A stretch of DNA of 64,000 bases. Source: Sisyra terminalis (taxonomy: Eukaryota; Arthropoda; Insecta; Neuroptera; Sisyridae). This document shows, piece after piece, positions 139 through 63,880 of this stretch; position 1 is the stretch's first letter, and every line of letters starts with the position of its first letter. The stretch is from assembly GCA_958496175.1 (NCBI GenBank), contig OY292275.1, positions 12,090,001 to 12,154,000 on the forward strand. The letters run 5' to 3'. The translations under genes were made by a program, and so were the position numbers. The notes beneath the pieces were generated by a model that saw only the letters and a program-made list of their open reading frames with translations, ran no database searches and was not told the DNA's origin.

Positions 139-474
139 CTGTGTATACAATATATAGGATATATTGCGGTCCAATTTATGTAGTATAATGTAATATAATA
201 ATATATAAAAATCATACCATAAAAAAAAATTTGAACAGAATTCACAACATTCGTGTGAATCATCACAAAGCAGTTACGGAGTGATCCAAACTACTTGATG
301 ACCACTGAGGAAGATTGCTTGGCAATCGAAATACGTATCTGGGCAATACGTCACGAATATTTTTGTTTGAACTTCTGTCCAAATTTATTTTTATGGTATG
401 ATTATTATATATTATTATATTAAATTACACTACATAAATTGGGCCGCAATATATCCTATATATTGCATACACAG
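139..474 (+). mobile_element. TIR element, family A, with hammerhead-like core (complete copy)
   Basis: The element begins ctgtgtatacaatatatagg and ends with its inverted copy finishing in gcatacacag. The arms are about 105 bp each (139-243 and 367-474). The roughly 120-bp centre holds a hammerhead-like core on the plus strand. Related sequences lie at 16493 (terminus only), 49974 (minus strand) and 63618 (plus strand), so this is a dispersed family. It has no coding capacity. The inverted ends suggest a DNA transposon-like or foldback element. The hammerhead core instead suggests a Penelope-like or retrozyme-like non-autonomous retroelement. I cannot decide between them; the target-site duplication is unclear. 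Confidence 0.65.
302..342 (+). ncRNA. Hammerhead ribozyme-like core (family A, copy 1)
   Basis: In order: stem I strand CCA (302-304), CTGAGGA (305-311), stem II GATTGC/GCAATC with a 3-nt loop (313-327), GAA (328-330), stem III strand ATACGTAT (a palindrome, 331-338), cleavage base C (339), stem I partner TGG (340-342). All conserved hammerhead core bases are present: CUGANGA, GAA, A15.1, U16.1 and H17. Activity is inferred, not shown. The very short stems I and III would favour a dimeric form. Confidence 0.55.
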
Positions 475-555
475 TATTACTGTTCAAAGTCAGCGAAAAA
501 GTCTTATGTTGATATAAAAGATCATTGATTTTAATGACTCTATTTTTGTAGCTAA

Positions 556-2677
556 AGTAATGTTTATGATTGAGCAAATTTTCCGTAAAGGGAAACTGTA
601 GAATTATTTACTTAAGTTCTAAATGTTTATCCAAAGTTTTTGTAACCATATCTTTATTTTATTATGCTTGTTTGCACGTAAATCGTGAGAACAATATCTA
701 ATGAATTTCCAAATTGATTTTACTTTCTTTGAAATTCAAAATTTTTGCTTAAATAAATAAGCGATTCACTAGTTTCCTGTATCCTATACCTTTCCACAAA
801 ACCAAATTTTCAATTATGAGCTTTGTTTCCAAACTTTAGTTCTATAGCTAGTTTATGTCTTTAGAGAGGTTTTCTTAAAAAATTAAGAATGCCTGCATAC
901 TTTAATTTTATCTAAACAATAAATAAATAATTAATTCTGACTTTTTAAACAATTGTTAATGCAACTTTGTCGATATTTGTCTTATGGAAGTATCCTAGTA
1001 AAATAAAAAACCAAAATTCCTTAAATCCAATCGTAATATGATTTTTTGGGGTACAATTCAAGAAGTTACAATTAATATTTTTATATTAAAAACTAATTTT
1101 AGTCAATAAGAACAAATAATTAATAAATAAATATTGAGTTGTGTTGGTGGACACAACCAATTTAAGAGCAGGACAGGACGACAAATTGCAATTATTGCCA
1201 AGAGGCAGATTGTGCAAATTAAGTGGAAATAAAAAAAAATATTTTTGTAGCAAATAAATTCATGAAGCTTTTTTCAATCTTCTTAAGCATTCCATTCTCA
1301 TGAATTTGATGCCTTAAAATTTTATTAAGAAAGTATTTGGAAGCAATTATGAAATTAAAACTCCTCTAGAAAAAACTTTACGAATCGCTTGTATATAAAT
1401 AATTTTTAAGAATTTTTTAATTAAATATTCTCGTATAAATAAAGAAAAATTACACAATATATACCTCACATTCTTAAATAATATGAAACGGCAAGTATTA
1501 TATTATTTTTAATAACGGCTGTTTTAAATTTGAAAAATACCAAATAAATTCTTTTTGCTTCCTTTTTAAATTTATTCTAATAAATTCATTGATTTAATGA
1601 CATAACATATTAAAATTCATTAAAGTCAAGTTTTAGATAGCTTGACAAGGGTAGAGAACAAAAAAGAACTTATAATATATAAATCTCAAATGAATTAATT
1701 TTTATAACTCTGCAGTATCGAACTATTCGTGTGTACTTCATCCACTTTTAATTAAAAATCCACTCAAATATCGATTTTGTCGAGTGAATGATTTACGATA
1801 TATACCGAAGTTAATATTTCCAATTTGAAATTATCATGTAGATAACATCGAACTAATAACAACCAATTTCGATTTGAAATCAAATGAGTAACGAACATGA
1901 AAATATTGTGATATGGTTTTCATTTCTAAATAATTTACGGTTAGTGGACGCTTTGTGACATCTTTGTTCGTGGAATCAAAAGTTAATATAGAATTTAAAA
2001 AAAATTTTTTTTGAATGAGAATTATAAAAAAAAATTAAACAATTTTGTCAATGGCAATTTTAACGGATTTCCTCGTTTTGTTAATTTTTATTGAGGTTTG
2101 AGTGTTAAATAATTTGTCGAATATTTCGAGTAAAATGATGTTACAATCTCGATAAAAACAGTAGAATTATTAAAAGCTATATTAATTTTTCTAAGTGTCA
2201 CTAAATAAGATGTAACATTAAAACATTATAATGAAAATTTTGCAGTTTGTAGATCATTACGTAGATGTTTAAATTATTTCTGGAAGATTACCTCAATTTT
2301 TTTTTGAAATAATCGCAGTACTATTTATAACGTGTAACTAGTCCCTACCTATGAAAAATGATAATAACTATTACTATATTATTCAATTAAAAACCATAGT
2401 AAGAAGAAAATCATAGTACTACAGTAGTGAATACGATGTCAGTGAATATGGAATGGGCAATTTAGTTTCTCTTAAGTAAAGGTTCATCAAATATATCAAC
2501 TTAAAGTCGAATCTAAAAAATCGTTTTTTTTAACATGAGAATCGATTCCTTATTGTACTATACAAAGTTACATAAAATTTAATTTTTTATTGTCTTAACC
2601 CAAATAACTTCTATAAAATTCATAGAAAGTAAGAGCAAATTTTCAATGCTAAATTAATAAAATTACTACTAGGCAAA
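556..2677. other. AT-rich stretch, nothing recognised
   Basis: Both strands carry frequent stops, with many A/T homopolymers. I see no transposon end, splice-bounded open frame or RNA gene here. Confidence 0.5.
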
Positions 2678-3012
2678 GCATCTGAAAATCATATTTTGAA
2701 CATCATTTAATAAGCTTTAAGATTTTTAACTATTTAGAAAACATTATTGTAGAGTTTCAGATCCTCGATAATGATAAATTGGTAAAAATATTCAGAGGAC
2801 TAGGATCAAATAATAATCAGTCAAAACTATTTGAAACATCGTGCATGTATCATAATAAATAGTTTTGACTGATTATTATTTGATCCTAGTCCTCTGAATA
2901 TTTTTACCAATTTATCATCATCGAGGATCTGAAACTCTACAATAATTCTTTTCTTAATAGTTAAAAATCTTAAAGCTTATTAAATGATGTTGAAAATATG
3001 ATTTTCAGATGC
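2678..3012. repeat. Near-perfect inverted repeat (hairpin), arms about 155 bp
   Basis: The left arm (2678-2832) begins gcatctgaaaatcatatttt. The right arm (2857-3012) is its reverse complement with only a few differences, and the loop is about 24 nt. A third, directly oriented partial copy of the right arm follows at 3011-3059 (gattattatttgatcctagt). There is no coding sequence and no hammerhead core. It could be a foldback element, a replication template-switch product or a source of hairpin RNA. Confidence 0.8.
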
Positions 3013-3059
3013 TGATTATTATTTGATCCTAGTCCCCTGAATATTTTTACCAATTTATT

Positions 3060-5204
3060 TAGAAATCGTTGTATTTAAAAATTAAATTAAATTTCTATGG
3101 AACAACTTTGGGCTACTATTGTGGGAAGCCAATTCCGTCCACTTTTAATTTATTATTTTCTTCCCGGATGTTTCTGGTGCCGTAGATCATTTTGCAGAAC
3201 AACGTTTTCTCTATTAACCATTCTTGGGAACATTTGGGTACTTGGTTGATCGCTTAAGATTGATTAGGAATATTGGACAGTTCTTCGATTATCTCCCATA
3301 GATTTGGCACCACTTCCTCCCTTAGGATCTTATTGTTTAAGATTTTTATAATTTTTGGTTAGTTGGAGACCTCAAAATTATTGAATTTGAACCTTAAAAA
3401 AACTCATTTGGCATTTATGATCATCTATTGCACTTGGATAAACATTGAGCATGTTTTTGGTATCAACTTTGTGTAAATATCCTGTAAAACTCAAAGAGAA
3501 TACAATACCGAATTTGTATTCCTATAGGCATTTGTCTTACTATTTTGATATAAATTCCAGAACGATAAATAATTTTTAATATTTTACGATTCTGGAAGTC
3601 ACTTTATCGTTAAATGTCTTTAATATGACTTGAAAATAACTTCCAAACCGAAAAATGGCAAGAGAACATTAATATGTTTAAAAACAAAATTTTTTTTCAG
3701 TCCACCGAATAGTAAATAATGAATTACTAAAGTCCAATTTTGGTCATAAAAATATTTTTTTTGGTCTCAATTTGTTCCTAGAATAATAAAATAAAGCTTA
3801 CAGCCTTGGGTTTGCAAAATTGCGTAAAAAGTTTCCAAATAGATTAATAATAATAAGAATTTTATGGTTTTATCGGATAAACATGGAATCAAATTTTGGC
3901 GCTTGATTAATTTCTTATATTTTATTGTCTTTAAATAGTTAAGGTATTTCCATCAATTTGTCCAATTTCCAAATGATCTCTAAAATGTTAGTACCATAAT
4001 TTTTCAATGGCAATCAATTTGAAAAAGTGCAGCTTTTATGAGAAAAACATTCGGTCGAATTTCCAATTGGTAAATTTGTAAGTGGTCGTTATCGATTGCA
4101 CATGTCTTCCATTCCAATCAATCGATGTCTTACTATTCTCTCCTTTTTCTTCGTTTTTGTTCTTCTAACTTAAAAAAGAACAAGAATGAAATAACGGATG
4201 AAGATTCTTGTGCATTAAATTAAAATCACTTTGGCTCGTTTTAGATGGAAGAAAAGAATTGAGCTTTTTTCTTAGACGAGAAAATTCCTCCGTTATATTG
4301 CTGTGAAAATCATCAGCCATTCACATTATTTGTCATCTCAAAATTTGTCTCGAGTACTTTTTTATTGAAAAAAAAAATGTAAATTTATAAACTAGTTGAA
4401 AATATGGAAAATTCGTAGATAAAAATGAGTTTAGTGGTTCAATTATATTTTAATGGTGGCCGAGATTTATTGCTTGCCATATGAAAATTTTCAATTGTGT
4501 GTTATTATCGTTTTTATGAGCTATAATTTTTTTTCTTTTTTAAGTTTTTAATATCAAAAATAACGTTTAGCTTTAGTGAGAGAAATTTTGAATTAATTTT
4601 TGATTGGTGCTTTAAAGAAAATTTAGACCTGATAGGGGTATTATAATTTATTGTAACATCAAAGGAAATTAATAATAATGTATGTTTGGTTGTGTTAAAC
4701 TCTGATTGTTGTGGAGATACGATAAAATAAATTACATTTTCAGTGTACAACACATGAATGGTGCATCGAAGCTTCTGATAACGCCCTTGGTTTACCAACC
4801 GATAATCTATAAACACAAGGCTCTTATTGACAAAATTTGTTACTCTCTATATTTTCCCATTTAAAATTTGATGCAAAAATTTTACATGTACTATACGTGA
4901 GCGCCATTTTTGTTTCAATATTCAGTTGAATTGGTTATGGATTTAGGACCAGTTGTAAATGTGAGTGCAATTATATGTACTGGTTACGCACTTAAATATC
5001 TCAAACTTCGAATTACGGAATGACTTATTTATATCTGCCATTCTCTTGTACATATTTTAGCCTTTTACTATGTTATTTCATATCACCAGGATTGTTTGCA
5101 TTCCAAACTAGCCAACAATTAAACTGGTTTTGCACTAACGTGTGGACCTCATACTGACAAAAGCCATAACAATAATGAAAAGTAGGTACTTCAATTTTAA
5201 TTTT
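3060..5204. other. AT-rich stretch, no recognised gene
   Basis: A 100-codon open frame on the minus strand (4514-4816) has no recognisable motif and an AT-driven composition. I treat it as chance. No transposon ends are seen. Confidence 0.45.
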
Positions 5205-5270
5205 ATCCCTTACCAGCTGATGTCGAGGCTGACCCGTAACTTCGCCTGCATGACGTCTACGGTGATATTA

Positions 5271-5479
5271 CAGTATAATCTCACTAATCTGGCACTTCGA
5301 TTAATCGGCACATCCAATAATCCGGCACCCTTCGCCCTGTGCATACATTTATTCCTTCTATGAAATACTTTATTTTATTTATTACCTATGACTTTTTCAC
5401 TATAATCCAATAATCCGAACATTCCAATAATCCAGCACCCTCCGGTTTTTAATAGTGCCGAATTAGTGAGATTATCCTG
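5271..5479. mobile_element. pogo/Tigger-like MITE, TA target site
   Basis: The left end is cagtataatctcactaatc. The right end, ctaatt-gtgagattatcctg in reverse sense, is its inverted copy. TA dinucleotides flank it at 5269-5270 and 5480-5481, as expected for the Tc1/mariner superfamily. The CAGTATAAT start resembles pogo-type ends, from recall. The interior repeats the words aataatccggcacc and ccaataatcc. It is 209 bp long and non-coding. A fragment resembling the head of the 15136 repeat (gacccgtaacttcgcctgca) lies just upstream at 5231-5250. Confidence 0.75.
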
Positions 5480-5481
5480 TA

Positions 5482-6045
5482 TTTTTTTTTTTGAAATTTG
5501 CATATATAAGATTTATATATTGGGAATTTTATATTCTTACGAAAAACGTATTAGAATCTAAAAATTAAAATTTGAACTCCTTTAAACAGGCACACTGTAT
5601 TCAATGTTTATTTTTTATAAAAGAAGTTACTATTAATATTCTATTAATTTTAAAAAAATTATCCGATGAGACTCAACACGATTATTTAAATTAAAATTTT
5701 TCATACCGTATGCGTAGGATGCATTCTTACTATATATTTAATTCTCCGCAAATCAATTTGTTATGCATGATTAAAAAATGTCATAAGATCAATAAATCGA
5801 TCGTTAATTGAAATATTACTTAAGGTAGACAAACAGAAAATTCAAAATTCCTCTAATTTTAAATGGATATATTATCTTGAGACGGTTATTGAATTTGGGT
5901 CAAAAATCCAAAAGTATAGAGTCCTAGTTTTTTGTAAATTAGTAAGGTTTCCAGATATTGCTCCAATTCCCGAATAAATGTTTCTTCCAGAACCACTTCC
6001 CCTTCCAATACTCATATACGAATAATTATAACGTTAATCGTATTA
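5482..6045. other. AT-rich stretch, nothing recognised
   Basis: No open frame or repeat end is seen between the pogo-like MITE and the mariner remnant. Confidence 0.4.
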
Positions 6046-6338
6046 TATTGGTTGTTTGGAAAGTAATTTCGTTTTTTCCCGACAAAAGATGTAATTGTAT
6101 TTTTTTGCACTCATTTTATGACTAAGCCGTATAATTATTATATGTTTTTAGAGCTTATATAGCAAGGCTTGTATGTGAAAAAGCTCAAGTGAATCTACGC
6201 AATAGTTTTTGGTCCTTTTAAATATGGAGAGGAAAAACCAGAATTTTCCATATATATTACTTTTTCACTATAGAAAAGATAAAATGCTGTTCAGCCAAGA
6301 AAAAAATTAACTGAAGTGTTTGCAGAAGAAGTATTGAC

Positions 6339-6588
6339 GGCACACCAGTGCCAAAATTAGTTTGTAAAATTTCGATTCGGCAATTTTGATGTCGAAGATG
6401 CATCACGGTCTGGAAGACCGGTTGAAGCTGATCAAGCTACAATGAATTCATTAGTTGATGCAAATCGGTGAATAACAGTACGTGAGATCCGTAAAAGGTA
6501 AAATTTACCAAATCCAATTGTAAATGATCCACTTGAAAGGCCTAGGATTAATCTCGAACCCTGATGTATGGGTTCCCTATGTTTTTAT
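6339..6588 (+). pseudogene. mariner transposase N-terminal (helix-turn-helix) remnant
   Basis: The plus-strand frame reads FDVEDASRSGRPVEAD (near 6392-6439), the classic linker between the two helix-turn-helix DNA-binding motifs of mariner transposases. After stops and a frame change it continues as HLKGLGLISNPDVWVP (6530-6577). An in-frame TAG replaces the expected Trp after CQN, and a TGA follows DANR. The DD34D catalytic region is missing. The binding domain once recognised the element's own TIRs; this copy is dead. Confidence 0.85.
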
Positions 6589-6834
6589 GGGGAGAAATTT
6601 GACCTCATACAAGTTTTGTGCCCTCCCAAAAGCTTTTACAACTTGAATGGTATAAACTGCCATACCCATATCATACTCAACAAATCTGGCACCTTCGATT
6701 TATTATTGGTTTTGACCACTGCAAAATCTTTTAGACGGTAAAACCTTTACTTCAAATGAGGAGGTCAAAAATCCCCCAAAATCAGTTTTCGGCTAAAAAA
6801 GAGCAAAAATTGTTTTAGTGAAAAGTCATACTAC

Positions 6835-6890
6835 AGTCAGAAAAATGGCAAAAGAAATTGAACCTAAATGGACAATATATAATTTAAAAA
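6835..6890 (+). pseudogene. mariner transposase C-terminal tail remnant
   Basis: The frame reads SEKWQKKLNLNGQYII and then a stop. This matches the usual mariner ending (a W-Q-K-V-x-x-NG-x-Y-like tail) and sits about 80 bp before the right TIR, where it belongs. Its presence shows that the element lost its middle rather than its 3' end. Confidence 0.7.
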
Positions 6891-6966
6891 AATATTTATT
6901 CATTTTACAAAAATTGTCTTTCATTGTCACAAAAAAAGAAACGAAATTACTTTCCGAACAACCTAA

Positions 6967-9318
6967 AATATTTAACCACTACAAAACGATACATGTATGT
7001 TATTAATATTTGAATTTTATTCAATGAAACTATATGGAACTGTTTCAAGCTCACCACACTGGATTTTAAATTTATTATAAATAGTGAAAAGAAAAAGATA
7101 ATGAAAGTTAAGTTCTAGATTACGATGTTTCTATTGTCATTGTTGCATAATCTTTGTGGCATTTATAAAATTAAATTCAAAACAACTTAAGATTAGTTTC
7201 AATTTATATATCACGCCTGCAATTTTCTGTAAAGTAATAACAAATAGAAATCCCTCTTTAGTAATCTTATAAAAAATCCCACTGGTGTTACAGTAATCCC
7301 GGTGGTTGCTAGGTAACCAATGGATCTTTGATACTAACTATGGGATTTGAGTTTTATTTTTTGATTTACTTGATAATTAAAATCTGTACAGAATTTGTTT
7401 TTTTTTTTTGAGTAGCATATCAAGTTTATATGTAATACACAGAATTTCTCTTGTAAGTTAATTAATTTCTAGTTTATAAATTCATAGCTTTAGAGCTTTT
7501 GAGATAGTATCTATTGTGTTATCTACAAGCACTTCTGCTGACAATTGCAATTATCACAGTAGATGAAATTGTAAACTCTTCGACATCAGACTCAACATAT
7601 TTACAATGTTACACCATTTATTAATTGAGTAATGCGGTTTTGAATAAAATACACACTAACCCAATTTGGAATGAACGTTGAATTATATAGAGAATATTAC
7701 GTAGAGAATTTCTAAGTGGATGAGTTTGATAATTAAAACTTTTTGGAAAGAACGTTCGCAACAAAATTTGTGAGAAAATTGCAAGGAAAATGCGCGAATT
7801 CACGAAACGAAGACAAAACGAAAAGTAATTTTCAATTACGTTCGAGATATTTTATAAATTGCCTGGCCGCCTGCATTGGCCTTCTATTCGAAAATAGCGT
7901 GGCTATTAAAATCTTCATTATCGATTTAATTTACGCGTTGGATTGCCGCATCTGATAACGTGTAAGTTATTTAAATGCAAAGGTCGAATCTTTCCAGTTG
8001 TCTTCGAATTTTCTGCCTGACCCCGGCGGCGGCGTAAAATATGAGCTTGAGTATTTAAAACTTGCCATTGGATTTGATTATATCTTAATGGTCACGTAAC
8101 CACAGTCGGATGTCTTGATAAAAATTGAATAAATTTTTCCTGACCGTTTTAATTGAAATGTATGCCGAAATGATTCGATCTTCGATTCGATGTTGAATGT
8201 TTGTGTTGACATTGTTGTTCATTGTGTATTCCGGCTCTCCTCTGCACACATATTGGATTGTTTTCATCTCGTTTCAGTAGTTTATTTGCATAAATTAAAA
8301 TTTATTTATAGGACATTTGTCATTTGTGTACTTTGCGTTTGTGGTGTGTTCTCATTAACGAGTTGAAATGAGAAAATTCAAAACGAATTGAAAAGATATT
8401 CGAGGAATTGAGAACTTATTTGAAATTGGAAAAAAGAAATTTTACTGAAATGAGCTTTTGCGTTTAAAACGAAAAATAATCACACTTATCTTTTTGATCG
8501 TATGTTTGAGGGTAGTGTGTGGGTGTTTGAATATATCTTTGTACGTTTTTAATGAGTGGGTGGCGTTACATGAAATTTTAATTCAATAAATTTATCTTAG
8601 AAGTTGGTTCAAAAGTTTTCATCAGCCACTCATAAATGATTTATTCTTGCAAACAAAATTCCGTAAAAGGGATCTTTCCCAACCAAAAAGGCAAATTGTC
8701 AATGTTTTAGAACTTAAAATTTAATTGTTATAAAATAATATTGAAAAAATATTGTTAACAACTTGTTGAGTGGAAAAACAAAAACTTTTGATGATCAGAA
8801 ATTAACTCAAACACAATACATAAATTTGAACCAAATTTAATTTTCAATTTTACCAAATTAAAAACAAATACTGAAAACTTAGACATCATATAATACTCAA
8901 GAGATTAAAAAATTGTGAAAGTTTTAGATTTCTTCCTGAAAATCATAATCTCTTTCTAAATATAAAAATTCACTTAACAATATCAACATTGGTGTTAATG
9001 ACCGGAGATGTTAAAGTACTTAAATATAAAGGAGATAAAGAGTAAACATTGCGACGATTTGTTTTCCCATACTATTTTCTTTGGTATTTTTTCCTTCACG
9101 TTGGTATTTGTACCACTTACAATTATAAGTATTTATTTCAATCAACTTAATGGTTTTTTCAATTTATAAGTACATAGAAAATCACTTACTAGTATACTTG
9201 TTTTTACCATGTTTACAGTTTTAAATTCTTCAATAACTAACAGTTTCATAATTGCCTTTTTCTTTTATTTATTTGAAATTTACTATTTTGCTAAAGATGT
9301 CAACAAGAAAAATATCGA
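6967..9318. other. AT-rich stretch with mildly GC-richer patch near 7.85-8.04 kb
   Basis: No recognisable gene. The patch at 7860-8040 includes ccccggcggcggcg and a short open frame ending at 7955 without recognisable motifs or convincing splice sites. A conserved non-coding element is possible but cannot be judged from one sequence. Confidence 0.35.
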
Positions 9319-12947: not shown

Positions 12948-12950
12948 TAA

Positions 12951-14025
12951 CACCGGCACACAAAAAAAAAAGTGCTCTGTACTTTTGACCGGACCTACAT
13001 AAATCTACGTATTTTGACCCCCTGAACACGAATCCGGGGTCGGTTTGACCTGTAGACCCTCAAAAATTCGAGAAAACTTTAAAAAACCGAAAAAAATGGT
13101 TAAAATCGGCAGTTTTGGTGACATTAAAATTTTTTTGAACTAAACCGAGCATGATTTTCATGTTTTTCGATCCGCTGAATACAAATTCGAAGTTTATGTA
13201 GATCATAAGCCGTTTTTATGGTAAGAAATTTGCCTGCTTTGCGAGCCTGCTTTCTCACTCTGACCAGACGCCGACACTGGGGTTCCGAATCCCTGCATCG
13301 TAAAACACTTTTCGCTTGTGCCTGCCATGACGACATATACGCCTTTAACCCAGGGACTCTGCCAGACGGTTCTGTTGCCCGCCGTCACCACGTGGAGGTG
13401 TCCTGGTTACAGACACAAGCATCCAAACAAGAATTCAAAAATGCTTAAAAGGTACTCTTGCATAACTAACTAGCCCTGTACAAAAGTCATTTAAAGACAG
13501 ACGGGTTCGATATAAGCAAATGACGAATTGAAATGAAAGCAATTGGCCCATTTGTAATTTTCAGAGATTTTTTGCGGGGAATTTCAATTTCTTTAAAGAT
13601 TTTGGCCAAATAATCTTCAAAATCATATTCCAGAAGTAGAATAATATGCAAAATATCCTTTGTAGAGATTTAAAAGTTTATTTTCATCATATAATCTCGA
13701 CTTTTAGAACACTAGCCGCAATTTTTTACAATTTTTAAGGGTTTTTTGCAATTTTCTTACAATAAAAACGGCTTATGGTCTACATAAACTTCGAATTTGT
13801 ATTCAGCGGATCGAAAAACATGAAAATCATGCTCGGTTTAGTTCAAAAAAATGTTTATGTCACCAAAACTGCCGATTTTAACCATTTTTTTCGTTTTTTT
13901 AAAGTTTTTTCGAATTTTTGAGGGTGTACGGGTCAAACCGACCCCGGATTCGTGTTCAGGGGGTCAAAATACGTAGATTTATGCAGGTCCGGTCAAAAGT
14001 ACAGAGCACTTTTTGTGTGCCGGTG
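12951..14025. mobile_element. Long-TIR transposon with GC-rich core, TAA target site
   Basis: It begins caccggcacacaaaaaa and ends with the inverse, ttttgtgtgccggtg. The inverted arms are about 275 bp (12951-13232 and 13746-14025) with few mismatches. TAA flanks both sides (12948-12950 and 14026-14028). A 3-bp TWA duplication fits PIF/Harbinger; the CAC terminus with a 3-bp target would also fit a CACTA-type element. The central part (13230-13450) is clearly GC-richer than the arms. It is open in several frames on both strands (up to 76 codons) but resembles no transposase I know, so it is probably captured sequence. Confidence 0.8.
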
Positions 14026-14028
14026 TAA

Positions 14029-22745: not shown

Positions 22746-24539
22746 GTTTTGAATTTTACAGTTTTGTATCCTTTTTTAAATGAATATGTCCTAGATTTTA
22801 TCAATGAATTTCAAATGTAACAGTCACATTATGTTTTTATATTAGGTAAGAACTTTTTAAAATCAATTTAAATCATTTTTAGAACTTGTGTATTTGGTCT
22901 TTTCGCCTAATGAAGAAAATGTTAATTCAAATCTAAGAAGTACTAAGAAGTGTAATAGAACTACAATAGTTAAAACTTTACCCGCAATTAGTTGTCTTTT
23001 TTAGATTTTCAATGACTCATACCAAAATTTAGCTAATTTGATTTTCTTTTCCCCATTTAATTACTACTGAATATTACTCTTGTTCTTCTTCCTATTGTTA
23101 ACTTTTGGTTAAAAAACTTATTCAACACTTAGTATCGAAACGATCGAAAAAAAGTGAGAATTTTAGACAAAATAATTCTATTTTCAAAACACTATTAAAA
23201 ACCGACAATCTGGAATTTTTCGATTCTTAAGTAAAGCACTTTTATTTGTAAAAGAAATTTCTATTACGAGGAAGTAACATATGATTGACAGTTTCCATTT
23301 GATATTAGATTTCGAATGGCAGTATAACAGTAAGCTTATCCTTTTTCAACAGTTGGTATCACTTAAAATAAATTGGTAAGTGATGAAGAAACTTTTAAGG
23401 GCCACTTTTCCAAGTAAAATTTTTCACAGAAATCAGTTTGAGTAGTTTCCCAATTTATCTCAAAATTTAAATTCTTGAAATCATTATTCACTTCATAAAA
23501 TTGTATAAAGTTTTGATCAATTTGATATTCAAATTTTCAGTATATTTAGATAAGAAGTATTACAATGAAATGGTTTTAATTTTAATCATATACGCATTAG
23601 TAAAATGGAATTAATATCTTAAGAGTTCAATTTTCTACGTTGGGGTCTATAGTCTTTGTACAACGATTCATCAAATATTTAAAAAAATAAATACCATTTG
23701 TATCTGATAGAAGTAGTACCAAATTCGCTTGTAATACAATTTATTGACTTGATTTAATATTTTTTTTAATTTTTCCAAATTATTTTTATTTATTCTGGTT
23801 CCGATATATTTCACAAAGGAAATTAAATTCATTTTTTTGCTTCAACTTTGTTGTGCAATGCTCAAAAGATGTCCCAGTTCTATTATTGTCCAACTATCTC
23901 CAAAGCTTTTTTTCCGTACAAAACCTATAGCTCGAGGGCAGTTAACAGTGCAATCTAAATCCCTTTTCACATACATAGATATATAAATTAATTATGAAGA
24001 TAACAATGATAATGATAATGACAGTGGAACACTTATCGTTGTAACTTAATGTAAATTTATGTCAGTTTCTGGTTCATAAAACAGAAAATTCTCAGGAATC
24101 AACATAGCGTTAAACCATAACCCGACTAGTTTATTGCAAAATATAGGGAACGGCGAGAGCTGATGGGGAGGTAAAGTTCAGGGTGGAAATTTTTGTTTTG
24201 GCATTTATATTACATCGTTTTTGTATTCGTATTCGTGTTTTGCTCTGTGCTACTAATAGATTATTCGTAGGCAATTTAACGCGGCAGCTTTTTATTTTGC
24301 CTTATTTTCGTAGACGCGAAAGTTCAAGTGAAATCTACATATAGTTGTTAATATGGACATATATTAAAGACTAGGTACCTTAGAACAAGACATAAGTAAT
24401 AACTATAAAAAGCTCAACGACATGTCGGTACATTAAAATTTCTGACCCAATTTTTGCATATGAAGAATATTTAGTTCAGGGTTTTTATGGTCTTTTTTCA
24501 TTAAACATTTACCGTATATAACTGGTATTCTTATCCATG
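22746..24539. other. AT-rich stretch, nothing recognised
   Basis: No open frame of note, no repeat ends and no RNA gene seen. Confidence 0.4.
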
Positions 24540-24579
24540 GTTATTATACATTAATGGTTCTCATTTTCTGGATACTTAA

Positions 24580-25293
24580 GGGTGGATCACCGTCAGAAAA
24601 AATAAATTTTCGATTTTTTTTTTCCATAAATGTCTTCTTATAACATTCAAGAATAACGTGTTAAAAGGATTGGAATAGCTGACTAATGTATTTTCACTGA
24701 TAAAAATTGAATAAATTGATAATAACATAAAAAGATATCTTAAAAAAACTTTAAATGCGTTTTTCTCGAAATCAACTTTTTAAAACTGGGAGACAAGATT
24801 TCTCATAAACTATCCGACGGATTGACTTGAAACTGGAGAGTGTTATAGTTCAACACGTCTTGGTACCGACCCTCTGAAATTGGCCAAACCTCTCCCCCCC
24901 TCAAAGTTTGAGAGGGGAAAAGGTCCAAAAAAAGGTCGTTTTTTTTTAACTTTTTTTTCAAAGTCGCGCCATTTTGTGAATTTTCAATTTTTTTCGGATT
25001 TTCGAGGTTCAGTACCAAGAAGACGCATTACCAAAACCTACATTCTTTGGAAAATCATGATCCGACTTCCGGTTTCCGAGAAAACTTGTCTCCGGTTTGC
25101 CTCCTCATTTTTGAGGATCCTTTTTCAAAGCGCTGTAAAAGGGGGAGGGGGGACATATCGGGCCAAATAAAAAAAAATAATAGTTCAAAACTTTAACTTT
25201 TACATGCTGAAGACCGTTTTTTAATATCTCTAAAAAAAGTGGCAGCAGTTTTAAAAAAGTCATTTTTTTTTACGTTCTGACGGTGATCCACCC
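24580..25293. mobile_element. TTAA-target TIR element inserted in the foldback
   Basis: The 19-bp perfect TIR is gggtggatcaccgtcagaa. TTAA is duplicated at 24576-24579 and 25294-25297. The foldback's other arm (around 25585-25600, atattaagtatcc) preserves the empty site with a single TTAA, proving an exact insertion. TTAA duplication is typical of piggyBac and Kolobok; the GGG terminus does not settle which. The 714-bp body has C- and G-rich patches (near 24893 and 25140) and a 96-codon open frame (24880-25170) with no transposase motif. Confidence 0.85.
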
Positions 25294-25323
25294 TTAATAT
25301 TCGATGTTTTTATTAAATTTTTC

Positions 25324-25361
25324 GTACAACGTTTCGCCACTGTCGCAGTTTCCTCAGATAC
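25324..25361 (-). ncRNA. Hammerhead ribozyme-like core (family B, left arm)
   Basis: On the minus strand, in order: stem I GTAT (25361-25358), CTGAGGA (25357-25351), a stem II region (25350-25336), GAA (25335-25333), ACGT (25332-25329), T (25328), and stem I partner GTAC (one wobble pair). Stem II is less regular here than in the other copies. Confidence 0.45.
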
Positions 25362-25526
25362 TCAATTACAAACATCAATTGTTAAATCCGTACAATAATC
25401 TCGGCATTTATACGATTGTCCTTTTCTTATGTAAATTGGTAAAAGAAGATACTGAGAATTATGAGGACAGTCGTTTAAATGCCGAGATTATTGTACATGG
25501 ATTAAACAATTGATGTTTGTAATTGA

Positions 25527-25564
25527 GTACCTGAGGAAGCTGCAAAAGTGGCGAAACGTTGTAC
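25527..25564 (+). ncRNA. Hammerhead ribozyme-like core (family B, right arm)
   Basis: In order: stem I GTAC (25527-25530), CTGAGGA (25531-25537), stem II GCTGC/GTGGC (25539-25543 and 25548-25552; two wobble pairs), GAA (25553-25555), ACGT (25556-25559, self-complementary), T as cleavage base (25560), stem I partner GTAC (25561-25564). The full conserved core is present. Confidence 0.5.
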
Positions 25565-25637
25565 GAAAAATTTAATAAAAATATCGAATATTAAGTATCC
25601 AGAAAATGAGAATCATTAATGTATTTATAATATAATT

Positions 25638-32772: not shown

Positions 32773-32774
32773 TT

Positions 32775-43262: not shown

Positions 43263-43639
43263 ATTTGCGATTTTTATAACAAAATTATCTTGATTTACGA
43301 ATATTATCAGACAAATATTGCATTTAATATAAGATACAACTCAGAAGCATTGATCACGAGTATTCAGGAGTTTTTTTAATATTCCAACCAACAAAATGAG
43401 ATTAAAATGTGTTAAATGATTCAATAATTAAATGAGGACATACTCTTATCTAACTATAGAATCTATTCTATAAAAAAATCATAAAGATTACAATAAATCA
43501 AAGACAATATTACGCAGAGACTTAGGGGAACGAAAACACCAAAAAAGTGATTAATAATGCAAAATAGCATTTAAATTTAAGGGGTATTGATATTATTTAC
43601 GATAAATTGGTTGTGTCCATAATTTATATAAATTTATTT
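43263..43639. other. AT-rich stretch, nothing recognised
   Basis: Spacer between two foldback elements, with no features. Confidence 0.4.
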
Positions 43640-43697
43640 ATTTTTAGTAGGATAGTGGACATGAAAGGATGTAGATCCATATACTAATTATTAATTT

Positions 43698-43737
43698 AGC
43701 GACACATTTCGGTCTTTTATTAGACCTTCATCAGGCT
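43698..43737 (-). ncRNA. Hammerhead ribozyme-like core (family C, left arm)
   Basis: Minus strand, in order: stem I AGC (43737-43735), CTGATGA (43734-43728), stem II GGTCT/AGACC (perfect, within 43727-43711), GAA (43710-43708), ATGTGT (43707-43702), cleavage C (43701) after GT, stem I partner GCT. It has the classical GTC cleavage triplet. Confidence 0.6.
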
Positions 43738-44058
43738 TCTAAAATCATACAAACACATGTATTACAGAATCCTTCAAAACATTATTAGTTGTTAAATTAC
43801 CTTAATATGAAGTATACAATATACATCACAATAACATCGATTTTTTTTCTTATCGCACACATACATTACAATTTTTTTTTAAATTAAAATTTTAATATAT
43901 AAAAAAAATAATTTAAAAAAAAATTGTAATGTATGTGTGCGATAAGAAAAAAAAATCGATATTATTGTGATGTATATTGTATACTTCATATTAAGGTAAT
44001 TTAACAACTAATAATGCTTTGAAGGATTCTGTAATACATGTGTTTGTATGATTTTAGA

Positions 44059-44098
44059 AGCCTGATGAAGGTCTAATAAAAGAACGAAACGTGTCGCT
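44059..44098 (+). ncRNA. Hammerhead ribozyme-like core (family C, right arm)
   Basis: In order: stem I AGC (44059-44061), CTGATGA (44062-44068), stem II GGTCT/AGAAC with one mismatch (44070-44085), GAA (44086-44088), ACGTGT (44089-44094), C (44095), stem I partner GCT (44096-44098). AC and GT inside ACGTGT can form a two-pair stem III ending in a GTC triplet. Confidence 0.6.
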
Positions 44099-44161
44099 AA
44101 ATTAATAATTAGTATATGGATCTACATCCTTTCATGTCCACTATCTTACTAAAAATAAATA

Positions 44162-45324
44162 AAAAAAAGAAGATATTATTAACGTTTGAAAAAAAAGGTA
44201 CTAAATCTTCGAATCTTGAATGTGATTAAAAATAACCCAATGGTCCAAATCTATTATAGAAGATATAAGATGATAAAAGTAAGATAAGATGTTTTTTTTT
44301 TTTTTTTTTCAACTACTTAAGTACTTTCTAATGTTAAAGTCTATCCCCGAATTTTTACCAATAACATTTTTTTTTTAACAAAATATTCAACTTTTGAATT
44401 TCGTCAATTTTCACCCAATAATCAAAGCTCTAAATCGATTCAAAACAATCACCACTTCTAGGCAATTTCATTCCTATTCCTCCTTTATCAGATCGACCAA
44501 TGTGAAATTAATTTCATCCAATTGAATTGTCCGCATTGAAAAATATTTATTTGTTCAAAACGATAATAGCGAACTAATTTAAATTTCACATGCGAATGTT
44601 TGAAATGACGGATGGAAATTGTGCAAACTTAATTAAAATTAAATGTTTTTCTCGTTAATTGAATTGTCTTTCAACTGAATTATTCAATTGATTGTTTCGC
44701 GCCAAGTACGCCCTTATTTACTATTATTACGACTCGTCTCTTTCGATTTTTACATTGTTTACCGAATCGTACGAGAAATGCATACAAATTTCGTGATTTA
44801 ACGATTCCACTTTATAAGGTGTGAATTATTTTAAATGAAAAAATCAACATGCACATAAAGCAAATGAGATAATCTTGACTGGTGGAACGAATGAAAAAAA
44901 TGGAATTTGTTTCAATTTTTTCCCGTTTTTTTTCTATGTAATAATTTTGTTTTAATGAAGCTACATGAATATGATATCTTTTTGCTTGATTAATAAATGT
45001 TCAGAGGATTCATCCATCAAGTGAAATTAATCTGTTTCGTCGCTATAAATAATCGATAATGTCTCGTATATACTTACTATACACATTTATCAATCATAAT
45101 ACTTCCTGACATATATTCACAATTTACTTTTTATAAGGCTCTTCGTTAATCTTAAATCAATGTCCAAGAAAATAGCATACAATAGTTTTCCTCTCCTAGT
45201 TAATTATGCAGGACGTCTCGGATTTTAACAGGCAAAAAGAAAACATCAGTTTTATTTCAAAGGGTACAAGTATGATGAATCGATCCTGGAAATATATTTT
45301 AATAATACTTAAGAGGTACGTAGG
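44162..45324. other. AT-rich stretch with an 18-nt T run
   Basis: Poly-T at 44292-44309. No gene or repeat termini are recognised otherwise. Confidence 0.4.
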
Positions 45325-49973: not shown

Positions 49974-50160
49974 AGTCCAATTTATGTAGTATAATTTAAT
50001 ATAAAAATCATACCACAAACATAAATTTGAACAGAAGTTCAAACAAAAATATTTGTGACGTATTGCCCAGATACGTATTTCGATTGCCAAGCAATCTTCA
50101 TCAGTGGTCATCAAGTAGTTTGGATCACTCCGTAACTGCTTTGTGATGATTCACTCAAAT
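49974..50160 (-). mobile_element. Family A element, truncated copy with hammerhead-like core
   Basis: It matches the 139-474 element in reverse, from gtccaatttatgtagtataa to gtgatgattcactcaaat. The outermost TIR on one side and the whole TIR on the other are missing. The core region is well preserved. Confidence 0.8.
50067..50107 (-). ncRNA. Hammerhead ribozyme-like core (family A, copy 3)
   Basis: Minus strand: stem I CCA (50107-50105), CTGATGA (50104-50098), stem II GATTGC/GCAATC (50096-50082), GAA (50081-50079), ATACGTAT (50078-50071), C (50070), TGG (50069-50067). Identical in layout to the copies at 302 and 63666. Confidence 0.55.
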
Positions 50161-52249: not shown

Positions 52250-52391
52250 ATAAGAAGACAATTCAGGTTGCTTAAGATCGGGTTATTTTATTTAATGTAT
52301 TTTAATACTCAAATTAGCTACGTTTCGTTACGTATCGTAACTTCATCAGGCTTAAACAACCTTAACTATACAACCTGAATTGTCTTCTTAT
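52250..52391 (-). mobile_element. Short TIR element, family D, with hammerhead-like core
   Basis: A perfect 21-bp TIR (ataagaagacaattcaggtt plus g) lies at 52250-52270 and inverted at 52371-52391, enclosing 100 bp with one hammerhead-like core. The TIR-core-TIR plan repeats that of family A with unrelated sequence. It is 142 bp long and non-coding. Confidence 0.7.
52316..52352 (-). ncRNA. Hammerhead ribozyme-like core (family D)
   Basis: Minus strand: stem I AGC (52352-52350), CTGATGA (52349-52343), stem II GTTACG/CGTAAC (perfect, 52341-52327), GAA (52326-52324), ACGT (52323-52320), cleavage A (52319), stem I partner GCT (52318-52316). Every conserved core base is present. Confidence 0.6.
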
Positions 52392-52885
52392 TTAATAAAA
52401 GCTGAGATCTGAATTTTATCTTCTATTATGGAAAAAAAATCAACAATGGATTCAAAATGAAAAAAATATTTTTTGATTTTTATGAAATATTTTTTAAAAA
52501 TTTCAAAATCCAAAGAAAACCTATTTCGTTTTGAGTAAAATCTTTGAGTTTAAATCGAAAAAAAATGGGGTAAATTAATGGACTTAATGGATTGGTTAAA
52601 TGATTTAATGGTTTTAATGGATGAATAGTATCAAAAGTATTACAAAAAAGTCAAGAAAAACTTTTTGCTAATTTAGTAATAGGTATGTTAGTAGAACAAA
52701 AACGAAATTAAATGTTTATCGAAAAAAATTCATTGGTTTTGAAAATTGATATTTAAAGTATCAGTAGGAAATTTAAAATGATTAAAACTTTAGAATTACT
52801 TGAGTTAATTTCTTAATGGAGAAACATTAAATTTAATTATTGTAAATAATTAATAATGTTCTTGAGAATTTGGATTTAAATAATA
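52392..52885. other. AT-rich stretch, nothing recognised
   Basis: No features between two hammerhead-bearing loci. Confidence 0.35.
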
Positions 52886-52965
52886 AGACATCATTTTTCA
52901 AATTATCTCAACGTTTCGTTGGTATTTATTTCCAACTTCTTCAGGAGAATTTTTGATGTTAACAT
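52886..52965 (-). repeat. Hammerhead-bearing hairpin, family E
   Basis: The words gacatca (52887) and tgatgtt (52954) close an imperfect stem that extends stem I of the core. No further element borders are visible. Confidence 0.5.
52906..52948 (-). ncRNA. Hammerhead ribozyme-like core (family E)
   Basis: Minus strand: stem I TCTC (52948-52945), CTGAAGA (52944-52938), stem II GTTGG/CCAAC (perfect, 52936-52918), GAA (52917-52915), ACGT (52914-52911), cleavage T (52910), stem I partner GAGA (52909-52906). Stem I continues outward through paired AT and catca/tgatg words with an internal loop. Confidence 0.6.
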
Positions 52966-59357: not shown

Positions 59358-60644
59358 GTTTTTAAGGAAAATTTTTGTTCCAGCTGTATTAATAAAACAC
59401 CGATTTTTTTCTGATAAATAAGCTTTCATTACTTCTACATGAAAATACTTAATTTAATCAAAATAATTTCCTTTATAAACTATACATTTTTGACACCTTT
59501 CTGGAAATTTATGGATACCTTACCAAATAAATGTTCATTTTTTGAGCTTCTTTTGGATTATGGGAAGCTTATCGTTGGAAAATAAACAACAGTTTTGCAA
59601 AGCAATTATTATACCCATCTTAATAAAAATAAATAAAACCAAAAAAATCGTTTCAAAAATAGATTTTGATGAAAATAAATTAAATTACCGAAACAAAATT
59701 TTATCTATCCCTTTACAAGATCAATTTTACTTAAATATATGAATAAAAACTATCATTTTTATTACATTGACGTTGTAAAAGCTCATTTTCATATTCAATT
59801 TATACCTCGACTCGATTCATACATCTATTTCGTGTACCGCTATAGAAAATTGATAAAATTTATAAAAGTTGGAATATGAGACTTTTATATATTATGTTGA
59901 AATTCAATTTTAAATTTTCCTCTGAAAACAGTCAGCATCGGTTGAAATCTTTCCATTCAAATTAAATTAGTTTTGAACTGAATGAATGATAAAAGTGGCA
60001 TGAAAATTGATTAGAATTATTCTTATGAAGTTGAAGATGAGCAAAGTTTCACTATAAAGTGGCAAAGTTAATTGAATTATTTTTAATATAAATCACTGAT
60101 GGTCGCGCCGGTCGGTTTGCAAAGTTTTTTCTTTGCCATACGCATTGGAAATGGCTGTTGAAATGTGAACATTTTCTATGCTTCGTAATGGGTGGAAGTA
60201 GTTTGTTGAGTATGTGTGGGTTATTTATTTATTGGAAATTAAAGACATTGTAAACAGTCTATTGATTTTGCTGTTGTAAACTGTAATTTTCTCTTGTTAT
60301 CATTGAGTAAATTGATTGAAAGCAATTTTATTGAAGTCATTGCCTCGATAATTTCATGATTGATCCAATTATTGCCTTCGTTACGATTGAAAATTTTATT
60401 TTCCGAAAGGCTTATCGGTTTTTATATTTGGGTAGGAGTTAACCCTCTTTTTATTTGTTAAATTTGGAATTCAAAGTTTTTGTCTTATATCTCTTTGACA
60501 ATTCTGATTTTTTTAAATTAGTTTTTTTAAAATATTAATAATTATTATTAAGGATATCAAATATCAAAAATTTTGTCTTAATTAGTCGGTTCTTGAAATA
60601 TTTGAAACCATTGTATTGAATACTAAAAGAAATATAATAATTAA
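59358..60644. other. AT-rich stretch, nothing recognised
   Basis: A frame at 59542-59742 is AT-driven. No repeat termini are seen. Confidence 0.4.
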
Positions 60645-60694
60645 ATTGTGGGCAATAAGGACGAAGCTTCTTGCGGAATATTAATTATTTTATC

Positions 60695-60732
60695 GCCAAC
60701 GTTTCGTCAATCATTCCTGACTTCTTCACTGC
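60695..60732 (-). ncRNA. Hammerhead-like core, decayed (family F, left arm)
   Basis: Minus strand: GTGAAGA (C3 changed to G) at 60729-60723, stem II GTCAG/TTGAC with one wobble (60721-60706), GAA (60705-60703), ACGT (60702-60699), T (60698), GGC (60697-60695). The conserved C3 is lost, so it should be inactive. Confidence 0.45.
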
Positions 60733-60898
60733 TCAAAATTAAAAATTACTCCACAAATGTCATAAAAATAAGCTGTAAAATGACCCAACTGGTAGAACAA
60801 CAAACTAAGAATACAATTTGGTATTGATAAATAAAAAATTATTTAAAAAACATTATTGAAAAAATATAAACACACATGGCTAAACTCAATTATAATAA

Positions 60899-62042
60899 TC
60901 TTATATATAAATTGACTATCTTGCCGTCCGTGCGTGCAGAATATACGCATGCGCTCTGTTATCCCCACTTACACATTCAAAACGTTGGTAGGGTTAAGTT
61001 GACACAGCGCACGGCATTTAAACATGCCTATTTGCTCAAACCGGCTATTTACCAAATTTGTTATTATTTTTGTATTTTTTTCATAACAACTATTTACGTT
61101 TGTCAAAATATTATTACTCAATCACATTAAATAATTATTTACACACCCGATGGTACAATTTTTTATGAATTTAAATTAATATTATTTGTAATAAAAGCGC
61201 GACAAATAGTAAGCCAGTTGTAAATATTCGCTTTTAACGGACTTTGATTGATTATTAAATTTGAAATTTCGATTGTTTATTAAATATTATCCCTTACAAA
61301 CTTTGCTACCGTTTTTCACTCTTTTAGGGGAGAAATTTTCAAAAACTCTTTCTTATTATATATCTGCATCGTATAAGGAAAACATTTTCCAAATTTCATT
61401 GACACAAATATGCACTTATATTTGAAAATACAATGTAAAACGAAAAAAAATAATGACATTCTTTATGTTAGTTAACATGACTAAAAAGCTATTCGATTTC
61501 GCACATTTGGACGTTGTACATACAAAATAGGTGGAAAGCGTGGAAGTAAATTCGAATATTTTATATTTTTCAATAACAATAATTGATTTTCAAATTGTTC
61601 TAAATACCGAAAAAAAGTTAGTATGGAAGATTATATATTTGCATTGACAGTGAAATATATGGCAAAAAACTGCAACCTTAATGCTTTTCAGCCGAATAAA
61701 TAATTACTCCAGATCACAACCATTGGTTGATAAAATAAAATATATTTTAAAAAGTTTGATTGTTGAAATACGAACCAAAATTTAAAATCGACAATTTGGT
61801 ATAAGTACTACATAAGTATTAAAATTTCATACTTATTTAGTGAAATGACGTTATTTAAAATGTTGTTATTAAAATGATATAAAAAATATTTCTTAATATA
61901 ATTTTAAATACAGTTTTTTTAATTAACAACACTTTGATTATTAAATTTAAAATTTCGATTGTTGATTAACTCTACATTATCTCATACTAAACATTTTATT
62001 GAGATAAAACCTTTAGTTGCGAATGCAACGGGCAACTACTAG
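60899..62042 (+). mobile_element. Helitron-like element in the foldback loop
   Basis: It starts TC (tcttatatataaattgacta) after an A at 60898. It ends CTAG (62039-62042) before a T at 62043, preceded by the hairpin gttgcgaatgcaac (62016-62029) and a 9-bp gap. TC start, a hairpin about 10 nt before CTAG, and insertion between A and T are the Helitron hallmarks. At 1.14 kb with no Rep/helicase, it is non-autonomous. An internal word (gattattaaatttraaattt) occurs at 61249 and again at 61935. Confidence 0.75.
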
Positions 62043-62243
62043 TAATAAATATAATAAGATATAACAATATATAATAATACATTATAACTGAGTTGAGCTA
62101 TGTGTGTTTATATTTTTTCAATAATGTTTTTAAACAATTTTTTATTCATCAATACCAAATTGTATTCTTGGTTTGTTGTTCTACCAGTTGGGTCATTTTA
62201 CAGCTTATTTTTATGACATTTGTGGAGTCATTTTTAGTTTTGA

Positions 62244-62283
62244 GTCCCGAAGAAGTCAGGAATGACTGACGAAACGTTGGCGA
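62244..62283 (+). ncRNA. Hammerhead-like core, decayed (family F, right arm)
   Basis: CCGAAGA (U4 changed to C) at 62247-62253, stem II GTCAG/CTGAC (perfect, 62255-62270), GAA (62271-62273), ACGT (62274-62277), T (62278), GGC (62279-62281). It is mutated at a different core base from the left arm; together the two arms imply an ancestral CTGAAGA. Confidence 0.45.
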
Positions 62284-62335
62284 TAAAATAAATAATATTC
62301 CGCAAGAAGCTTCGTCCTTATTGCCCACAATTTAA

Positions 62336-63617
62336 TTATTATATTTAAAAAGACAAGGACTTAAACAACATGGACTAAAAGAAATATTTTTTATTTATTT
62401 TGTAGCTACTTATATCTAAGGATATTCTAAGTAAATGGCTTTTATGAAATCTCAACAATCTGATTTAATATCTTTCAAAACTTAAAGATTATTAAGAGAT
62501 TTCAACGTTTAAATATTAACAGTATTTAAAGGGAAAAGTGTGATTTTCTAATTTAAATATAACCATTATCGTGACAATGTTTGAAATCCTGACATTTAAA
62601 ATCACTTCCAATTAAAAATGATTTCTAGCTAAGGAACCTGCAATTTTTCGTAAATTTTTAATACACTAAGGTATTATTAACAATAAAAATTAATCAAACC
62701 CTTTTACAATGATTTCGCCATTCAGTTATCGAAAGTGCATCATTTATGATGTTCCGTTCTCCAAAGGTTTCCCGTTAACTTTAGTATAACATTCCCCCCC
62801 CCCCAAATTAAAACAATGAAAAAATTCAACTTTTTAATCCAAATTTTCAAAAAAAATAATTTGGGAATTTCAAATGAAAACTAAGTCGATATCCACAAAT
62901 CAATGGATCGCGTTACTGATCTTTAATTTTTTTTCGAAATTTAACTCTTTAACAATGTAATGATTGGAAACCTTTGCTAAAAGTACAAGAAAACTACCTC
63001 AAAAGTTGGAAAACCCAAATTTTTTTTTGCTTATCAAAAAAAAATTTTCATTTTTAAAACCTTCTTTACTTGATTATTCAAAAAGGGGCAACAAATTAAT
63101 TTATTCCGGACTAATGCCAAGCCCGGTTTATTTTAAAGTGTTATTTGATCGTTTTAGTTTCCAACTATTGAAATTAGTATTGCACTACTAGAATGAGCTA
63201 ACGATGTGGTCTTAACAAATATATCTTCTATCAATCCTCAAGGGTTAATAAAGACCATGGAAATTATCCTATTATTATAAACACAATGCACCAGTAATAA
63301 CTAACACTTTACAACTCAATAATAATTATGAAATTGTTATTATATGTTTCGAAATGGTAAATTTTAAAATATGAAAAACTAACGTCATTCCTAAAGAGGG
63401 AAAATTTTAAAAATTGGAAACTTTTCATCTCTGCAGTTGTCATCAGACTTTGAAACGAAATAGCATTTTTTTATCATGCGAAGAAGATCGTTAAAAAGTG
63501 TTGTTTTCCATTTATTAATTAGGGATTCATGAATCATATCTAATTAAAATTAAATAAATACCGATTGAATTATTGATTGGGCTATCTATAATTTTATGGT
63601 TTTCAATCTGTGAATCA
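62336..63617. other. AT-rich stretch with an 11-C run
   Basis: Poly-C at 62794-62804. A frame at 62964-63191 has no motif. No repeat ends are seen. Confidence 0.4.
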
Positions 63618-63880
63618 TGTGAATCATCACATAGCAGTTACGGAATGATCCAGACTACTTGATGACCACTGATGAAGATTGCTTGGCAATCGAAATACGT
63701 ATCTGGGTAATATGTCATGAATATTTTTGTTTGAACTTCTGTTCAAATTTATGTTGGTGGTATGATTTTTATATATTATTGTATTAAGTTTATATATTAT
63801 TTTATTAAATTTGTATATTATTATGTTTAATTATACTACATAAATTAGACTGCAATATATTTTATATATTGTATACACAG
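63618..63880 (+). mobile_element. Family A element, left-truncated copy with hammerhead-like core
   Basis: It matches the centre and right arm of the 139-474 element, ending in tattgtatacacag like the first copy. The left TIR is absent. The right arm carries an extra tandem ttatatattattttattaaa-type expansion (63767-63830). Confidence 0.8.
63666..63706 (+). ncRNA. Hammerhead ribozyme-like core (family A, copy 4)
   Basis: CCA (63666-63668), CTGATGA (63669-63675), stem II GATTGC/GCAATC (63677-63691), GAA (63692-63694), ATACGTAT (63695-63702), C (63703), TGG (63704-63706). The core is unchanged from copy 1 except N7 (T instead of G), the one position that is free in the consensus. Confidence 0.6.

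Follow-up and report, generated by a model that had tools for sequence, protein, structure and literature searches.

What do eleven short motifs with the appearance of a hammerhead ribozyme core belong to, when they are scattered from position 302 to position 63706 of a single stretch of insect DNA? The stretch, called the window from here on, is 64,000 nucleotides of the neuropteran Sisyra terminalis (contig OY292275.1, positions 12,090,001 to 12,154,000), and an initial annotation had sorted the motifs into six repeat families, A to F, of small non-coding retroelement copies, naming the termini of Penelope-like elements as one context in which hammerheads occur. That description holds, and the Penelope context gains support from the insertion structure and from a family A element elsewhere in the genome. 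The eleven motifs are very probably minimal type I hammerheads located in the pseudo-long terminal repeats (pLTRs) of several Penelope-like families. What is directly observed is a core flanked by paired stems, head-to-head pairs of copies that have a target-site duplication (TSD) and a tail at only one of their two ends, and a reverse transcriptase (RT) frame in family A. The element is of a known kind, and intact copies of family A are present in the same genome. Families B to F would be Penelope pLTRs by their shared architecture, with no linked coding element, and self-cleavage of the window loci is a prediction from their sequence.

Cervera and de la Pena in 2014 and Lunse et al. in 2017 are said to have located minimal hammerheads in Penelope pLTRs, and Lunse et al., going by their title as cited, reportedly have them cleaving as dimers. 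Excerpts of published papers, from which all statements cited here by PMC number are drawn, describe minimal type I hammerheads without helix III as conserved in Penelope-like elements (PMC7761336; PMC6155905), and a 2020 review terms their role there unknown (PMC7761336).

The hammerhead core and its paired stems

As a strict descriptor of the motif we take CTGANGA, a stem II of at least 4 bp, GAA, the A..U pair, H17, and a stem I of at least 3 bp. It finds 7 sites in the window (305, 25531 and 63669 on the forward strand; 52944, 52349, 50104 and 43734 on the reverse), every one among the eleven loci; 60 dinucleotide shuffles yield 0.05 sites on average and at most 1. Relaxing the descriptor raises the number to 12, made up of all 11 loci, each at its annotated position, and a site at 58191; here 100 shuffles average 0.11 and again yield at most 1. 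Stem I is missing from 58191 and from locus F1 in the relaxed scan, and 58191 is probably a chance match. A fully formed motif is thus present at 7/11 loci, those of the strict descriptor, while the relaxed one recovers 11/11, and the excess over shuffled sequence on which the initial annotation had staked its claim is found in both scans. The window loci have the core CUGANGA...GAA with the A15.1-U16.1 pair and H17. The annotation had called CTGANGA decayed at two loci, and this is so for F1 and F2, each by one base and each at a different base; B1 and C2 have one broken stem II pair each.

The stems can be compared between families. One representative was taken per family and strands were exchanged between families. 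The first pair of stem II is G-C in all six families and positions 2-5 differ on both strands, and yet with their own strands all 6 families form 5/5 pairs, whereas swapped strands reach 5/5 in 2/30 combinations. Stem I has 3-4 bp in each of the five families A to E, and 3 bp are reached in 0/18 swaps, the two C-D swaps being excluded because C and D have identical stem I sequences. Among 69 distinct sites with a stem II of at least 4 bp, taken from the fetched loci up to L148 and the window, 50 have a stem I of at least 3 bp; for the 5 families tested, stem I extends past 3-4 bp no more than expected by chance, with shuffle fractions of 0.18-0.67. Stems I and II are maintained through compensatory change. 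Both of the annotation's statements on pairing, that the hairpin differs among families and that a stem I of 3-4 bp closes in A to E, therefore stand. Its reading of compensatory stems as the sign of an RNA structure stands also, but not its exclusion of shared descent, given the reported conservation of minimal hammerheads among Penelope-like elements.

The individual loci are as follows. Family A has A1 at 302..342 on the forward strand (stem I CCA/TGG, stem II GATTGC/GCAATC, helix III ATACGTAT, C17), A2 at 50067..50107 on the reverse strand, and an intact A3 at 63666..63706 on the forward strand. Family B has B1 at 25324..25361, reverse, and an intact B2 at 25527..25564, forward (GTAC/GTAC, GCTGC/GTGGC, helix III ACGT), and family C has C1 at 43698..43737, reverse (AGC/GCT, GGTCT/AGACC, helix III ATGTGT), and C2 at 44059..44098, forward. 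Families D and E have one intact locus each, both on the reverse strand, at 52316..52352 (AGC/GCT, GTTACG/CGTAAC, ACGT) and 52906..52948 (TCTC/GAGA, GTTGG/CCAAC, ACGT). The two loci of family F are at 60695..60732, reverse (F1), and 62244..62281, forward (F2). In RNA letters, helix III is ACGU without a loop in families B, D, E and F, ACGUGU or AUGUGU in C, and AUACGUAU in A.

How far this extends beyond the window can be asked of the genome, 376.6 Mb on 11 contigs, in which the window lies on contig C2. The pattern CTGANGAAGN{5,25}CGAAACGT, which does not cover family A, has 8,316 genome matches (4,105 forward, 4,211 reverse), and its reversed version has 1. All detailed results on matches given below refer to 100 listed of the 8,316, all on contig C1. 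These have 43 distinct stem-loop II sequences, and a stem II of at least 4 bp in 89/100 and of at least 5 bp in 81/100; the distinct stem II sequences average 4.67 of 5 pairs, versus 2.97 with strands swapped. For comparison, a linear word CTGANGAAG..CGAAACGTNG is present in 97 viral contigs, of which 1/97 has a stem II of at least 5 bp and 0/97 both stems. The exact cores of families A and C have no match in viral contigs, nor does that of family A in prokaryote contigs.

The reading that the motifs are chance matches to a short consensus in AT-rich DNA would find its support in two results. Rfam reports no hammerhead in the window, neither at the gathering threshold nor up to E = 10, and none in two short local stretches, so the window loci do not reach the curated threshold of its hammerhead families; on this covariance-model check, as the initial annotation had worded it, its claim fails. 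Furthermore, when segments of about 75-80 nt are folded to minimum energy without constraint, both stems I and II form at 3/11 loci, namely B2, E and F1. Stem II forms at these three and at C1, D and F2 (6/11), and A1-A3, B1 and C2 fold otherwise. The Rfam misses probably arise because the loci are minimal type I motifs in which an ACGU palindrome replaces helix III. Against chance are the shuffle means, which already refute it, the ratio of 8,316 matches to 1, and the compensatory stems, and we consider its probability practically negligible.

Orientation, tails and target-site duplications

The next point of interest is how the copies lie relative to each other. Counting stem-loops more than 75% alike as the same family, the listed matches have 26 pairs of neighbors less than 1 kb apart, 23 from the same family and 3 from different families. 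All 23 same-family pairs are head-to-head (-,+) and none is in tandem. Between 1 and 3 kb there is one head-to-head same-family pair (1.8 kb) and one on the same strand (1.6 kb).

The orientation bears on whether the loci are retrozymes, small non-autonomous hammerhead elements that spread via circular RNA from tandem repeats. Like metazoan retrozymes (PMC7229834), the copies have a type I hammerhead within short non-coding repeats; they are AT-rich and of many type I hammerhead families, insects are among the invertebrates for which repeats resembling retrozymes have been described (PMC7229834), and the same-strand pair at 1.6 kb could be counted on that side. Metazoan retrozymes are, however, described as arranged in tandem, with small circular RNAs and, in invertebrates, a workable helix III (PMC7229834), whereas here there are no same-family tandem neighbors within 1 kb, hence none of the 150-450 bp tandem hammerhead repeats by which retrozymes would be recognized, and helix III is a bare ACGU palindrome in most loci. 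The hammerheads in newt and axolotl satellites are alike in having a weak helix III, a palindromic loop and a dimer mechanism of the kind proposed here, but they too sit in tandem repeats (PMC7229834).

What the ends of the pairs look like is more specific. We compared 25 pairs outward from the hammerhead, the 23 above and, from the window, those of families C and F. In most pairs the two arms remain similar over roughly 100 nt beyond C3 (the full range is 46 to 158), and a family-specific tail follows on a single side, as seen in the D/H, C/K and F copies. TSDs were searched with both offsets free, taking a score of at least 10 as confident and using flanks swapped between elements as the control, with the result that 17/25 pairs have a confident TSD compared with 6/300 controls; with one end constrained to lie near the arm edge, the numbers are 16/25 and 6/600. 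In 17/17 of the confident-TSD pairs one end is tailless and the other has a tail of 23-43 nt, median 31. TSD lengths are 8 to about 15 by eye. A one-sided tail of roughly 30-40 nt with a variable TSD, which is what we would look for in a Penelope-like insertion, is accordingly found in 17/25 pairs. With no close tandem copies, and with a Penelope-type tail and TSD, we set the retrozyme reading aside as highly improbable, and the position of family A as the pLTR of a coding element, described below, is a further point against it.

The same ends decide on a second possibility, that these are foldback or miniature inverted-repeat transposable elements (MITEs), DNA transposons that replicate as palindromic units and have a hammerhead in their terminal inverted repeats by coincidence. 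That would give symmetric inverted pairs with short direct repeats, and such pairs are indeed seen. A palindromic unit would, however, be expected to keep its center, and the length from hammerhead to hammerhead takes 13 distinct values in 14 D/H pairs, although unit sequence upstream of the hammerhead is common to most of them (not L144). Because the centers vary and the tails are one-sided we consider this reading extremely improbable, and the variable TSD length and the 5'-truncated copies that share a constant 3' end also go against it. The variation in center length suggests that the junctions were formed anew at each insertion.

In the window itself, the family F pair occupies 60622..62381, with an 8-bp TSD ACTAAAAG at 60622-60629 and 62374-62381 and a tail at 62347-62373. 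Its center contains an insertion at 60899-62042 with a TC start, a GTTGC/GCAAC hairpin, a CTAG end and an A/T target, which we take to be Helitron-like on the strength of these hallmarks. The family C pair is at 43600..44163 with its tail at the left, about 43600-43632, and the family B pair, with approximate outer edges, at 24535..25635. The left arm of the B pair is split at 24576-25297 by a MITE-like element bounded by TTAA on either side. Its inverted ends, with outer part TTAAGGGTGGATCACCGTCAG, are 45 nt long and 78% complementary, and beyond it family B homology picks up again. Family D forms an insertion on the reverse strand with approximate edges 52250..52420, made of the unit, a 21-nt inverted arm (52371-52391), and then the family tail. 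No inverted partner is seen for the family E locus at 52906..52948. Family A contributes an insertion at 138..508 on the forward strand, composed of a truncated inverted pLTR arm (138-249), a pLTR unit with hammerhead A1 (about 250-476), and a tail (about 477-508).

Folding whole elements gives some idea of what pairing would do to such inserts. In inserts of families B and C, the hammerhead in sense orientation pairs nearly throughout with its own antisense copy, and because of this predicted pairing these copies are probably silent in cis. The A1 insertion, with its inverted arm truncated, folds into a long hairpin that has the hammerhead close to its tip, with stem II formed.

A seventh family, G, absent from the initial list, has pLTR arms at 2743..3059 that are cut downstream of the hammerhead core; a third partial copy is at 3012-3059, and elsewhere in the genome this family has stem II GGCTC/GGGCC. 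More large inverted-repeat elements are found at 12946-14030, 39590-40022, 40440-40744 and 42317-43189, in which hammerhead scans are empty.

A coding element with the family A repeat

Penelope RTs have the motif W-x-R-Y-V-D-D. Used as a DNA pattern it gives 75 genome sites, versus 4 for the reversed pattern, and one of the loci, L179, turns out to be intact. It consists of two head-to-head copies whose 3,024-nt arms are 100% complementary, with one 839-aa frame each, and the frame has an RVT_1 match with E = 1.8e-8. The right-hand copy has exact 378-nt direct repeats at 4023-4400 and 6823-7200, the second of which overlaps the frame at 4365-6881, and each repeat contains an identical family A hammerhead on the same strand, with C3 at 4105 and 6905, 2.8 kb apart. 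pLTRs in direct order around one RT frame, with the hammerhead inside the pLTR, are therefore found in this element. By eye, a duplication of 12-13 bp, TTAAATCAAAAA, can be read in the flanks, together with a tail on a single side. One inner hammerhead, at 3932 (-), differs from the other three copies at this locus in having helix III expanded by about 18 nt.

The question of what the window copies are to this element is answered by alignment. Its pLTR aligns with A1, A2, A3 and a fragment at 16495-16545, at 80-92% over pieces of 50 nt or longer. The A1 match continues into the tail, and the insertion 138..508 aligns with the pLTR and the stretch beyond it. The fragment, on the reverse strand, is a 51-nt 3' end of the pLTR from a 5'-truncated copy; A2 lies inside a pLTR copy without a 3' end at about 49977-50160, and A3 in a forward copy at 63603..63880. 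Family A is the pLTR of a full-length coding element in the same genome.

The 839-aa protein has 381 database relatives at E of at most 0.001 among 7,992 scored. Among the 120 relatives listed, all organisms named are arthropods, and most of the proteins carry PF00078, PF28514 and PF26215, some PF01541. In the genome the protein has 57 matching rows, from 54 of 2,854 candidates scored; 9 of the 57 are intact over residues 1-839 and represent near-identical full-length copies, and 41/57 reach residue 839 from starts that range from 1 to 543. Neighboring rows are, by our own count, (-,+) in nine cases, on the same strand in one and (+,-) in none. Both halves of the Penelope pattern are thus seen, head-to-head inversion in 23/23 close same-family pairs among the hammerhead matches listed, and 5' truncation to a common end in the 41/57 protein rows. 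A second Penelope family at L180 is broken, with several pieces matching the Penelope profile and a hammerhead-like motif downstream of the frames. At L115, positions 550-1108 hold the last 49 residues of the protein (791-839), found by direct comparison, with adjoining family A pLTR pieces, beside a family K hammerhead pair.

The hammerhead-bearing copies in the window are non-coding, and 10 of the 12 window frames of at least 90 aa, searched with Pfam, have no match above its cut-offs. Family C units (L117, L142, and in the window 44092 (+) and about 43703 (-)) have in common an open frame whose ATG follows the hammerhead (MDLHPFMSTI...) and which continues through the tail at L117; such a frame would be expected if the pLTR contains the start of a coding frame since lost.

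Several results, besides those of Rfam and the unconstrained folds, weigh against placing all the motifs in Penelope pLTRs. Neither the window nor loci L098-L178 show any coding trace with a Penelope protein profile, direct comparison of the 839-aa protein gives no window match below E = 2.7, and neither method links a coding element to families B-F. The GIY-YIG match of the protein is weak (E = 0.015, residues 692-729) and below the Pfam cut-off, and a genome search for GIY-YIG has a single match, L128, which by its sequence looks like the host SLX1 nuclease gene. Of the pairs, 8/25 have no confident TSD; 3 of these have weaker duplications of the tailed/tailless kind, 2 have weak ones of another kind, and 3 none. 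Finally, the 23 head-to-head pairs account for only 46/100 of the listed places. A genome search with RVT_1, in which 150 of 3,440 candidates were scored, adds that 2/30 excised loci have one hammerhead-like word.

The annotation's idea of several small retroelement families survives this weighing. Its further inference of independent non-autonomous hammerhead elements of the retrozyme type does not, because the same-family pairs show Penelope insertion structure and a coding element has family A as its pLTR.

Known Penelope-like elements and a possible insertion route

The nearest comparison is with the Penelope/Poseidon type as described in PMC7761336 and PMC11167929, which shares pLTRs, an RT protein like the one of 839 aa here (the GIY-YIG part being probable), a minimal type I hammerhead without helix III, a tail, a TSD, head-to-head inverted pLTRs, and 5' truncation. 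What differs here, among the matches listed, is the presence of 43 stem-loop II variants in one genome, the 46/100 places in short head-to-head pairs, and a tailed/tailless asymmetry without exception in the 17 confident-TSD pairs.

A further comparison is with Adineta vaga, where Penelope has head-to-head inverted pLTRs with an optional 31-bp tail on one, and TSDs of 8-10 bp in several copies and not in others (PMC3846280). The inverted pLTRs, the one-sided 31-bp tail, the 8-10 bp TSD, and palindromes at the head-to-head junctions are all like those here. In A. vaga, unlike here, the tail is described as optional, the TSD is sometimes missing, and the described copies are few and largely coding (PMC3846280), whereas the short pairs we examined are non-coding.

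How Penelope-like elements insert has been partly worked out with an element from Anolis (PMC11167929). Both strands of AT-rich DNA are cleaved, and two adjacent internal RT start sites account for the tail; the hammerhead of that element cuts only with protein added, and is described as dispensable for insertion in vitro (PMC11167929). Our loci fit the published Anolis and Adineta insertion picture. The element protein would cut both strands of AT-rich DNA, reverse transcription would start at two adjacent sites within the element RNA, and two truncated cDNAs would join head-to-head, leaving a short non-coding insert with one or two hammerheads. The short inserts may be early-terminated products of the same insertion reaction. 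The natural setting of the hammerhead would be the full-length tandem pLTR transcript, in which the palindromic helix III, ACGU or AUACGUAU, could let two hammerheads dimerize and release unit-length RNA.

A more specific proposal, which we put forward tentatively and would at present bet against rather than for, is that every head-to-head insertion represents two linked RT starts, one at each of the adjacent internal sites, which would invariably give one end with a tail and one without. If true, the protein works as an asymmetric pair, and inverted inserts with hammerheads are its normal product and not a by-product. The asymmetry is the part of these results that specialists may not expect. 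Together, the tailed/tailless rule in 17/17 pairs and the absence of tandem copies within 1 kb among the matches listed are testable statements on the mechanism.

Since Rfam is blind to every locus in the window, counts of such ribozymes based on Rfam may be underestimates. The Sisyra terminalis genome contains both intact full-length Penelope-like copies and 8,316 hammerhead matches, and the outcome of insertion is preserved in the short pairs sampled from these matches.

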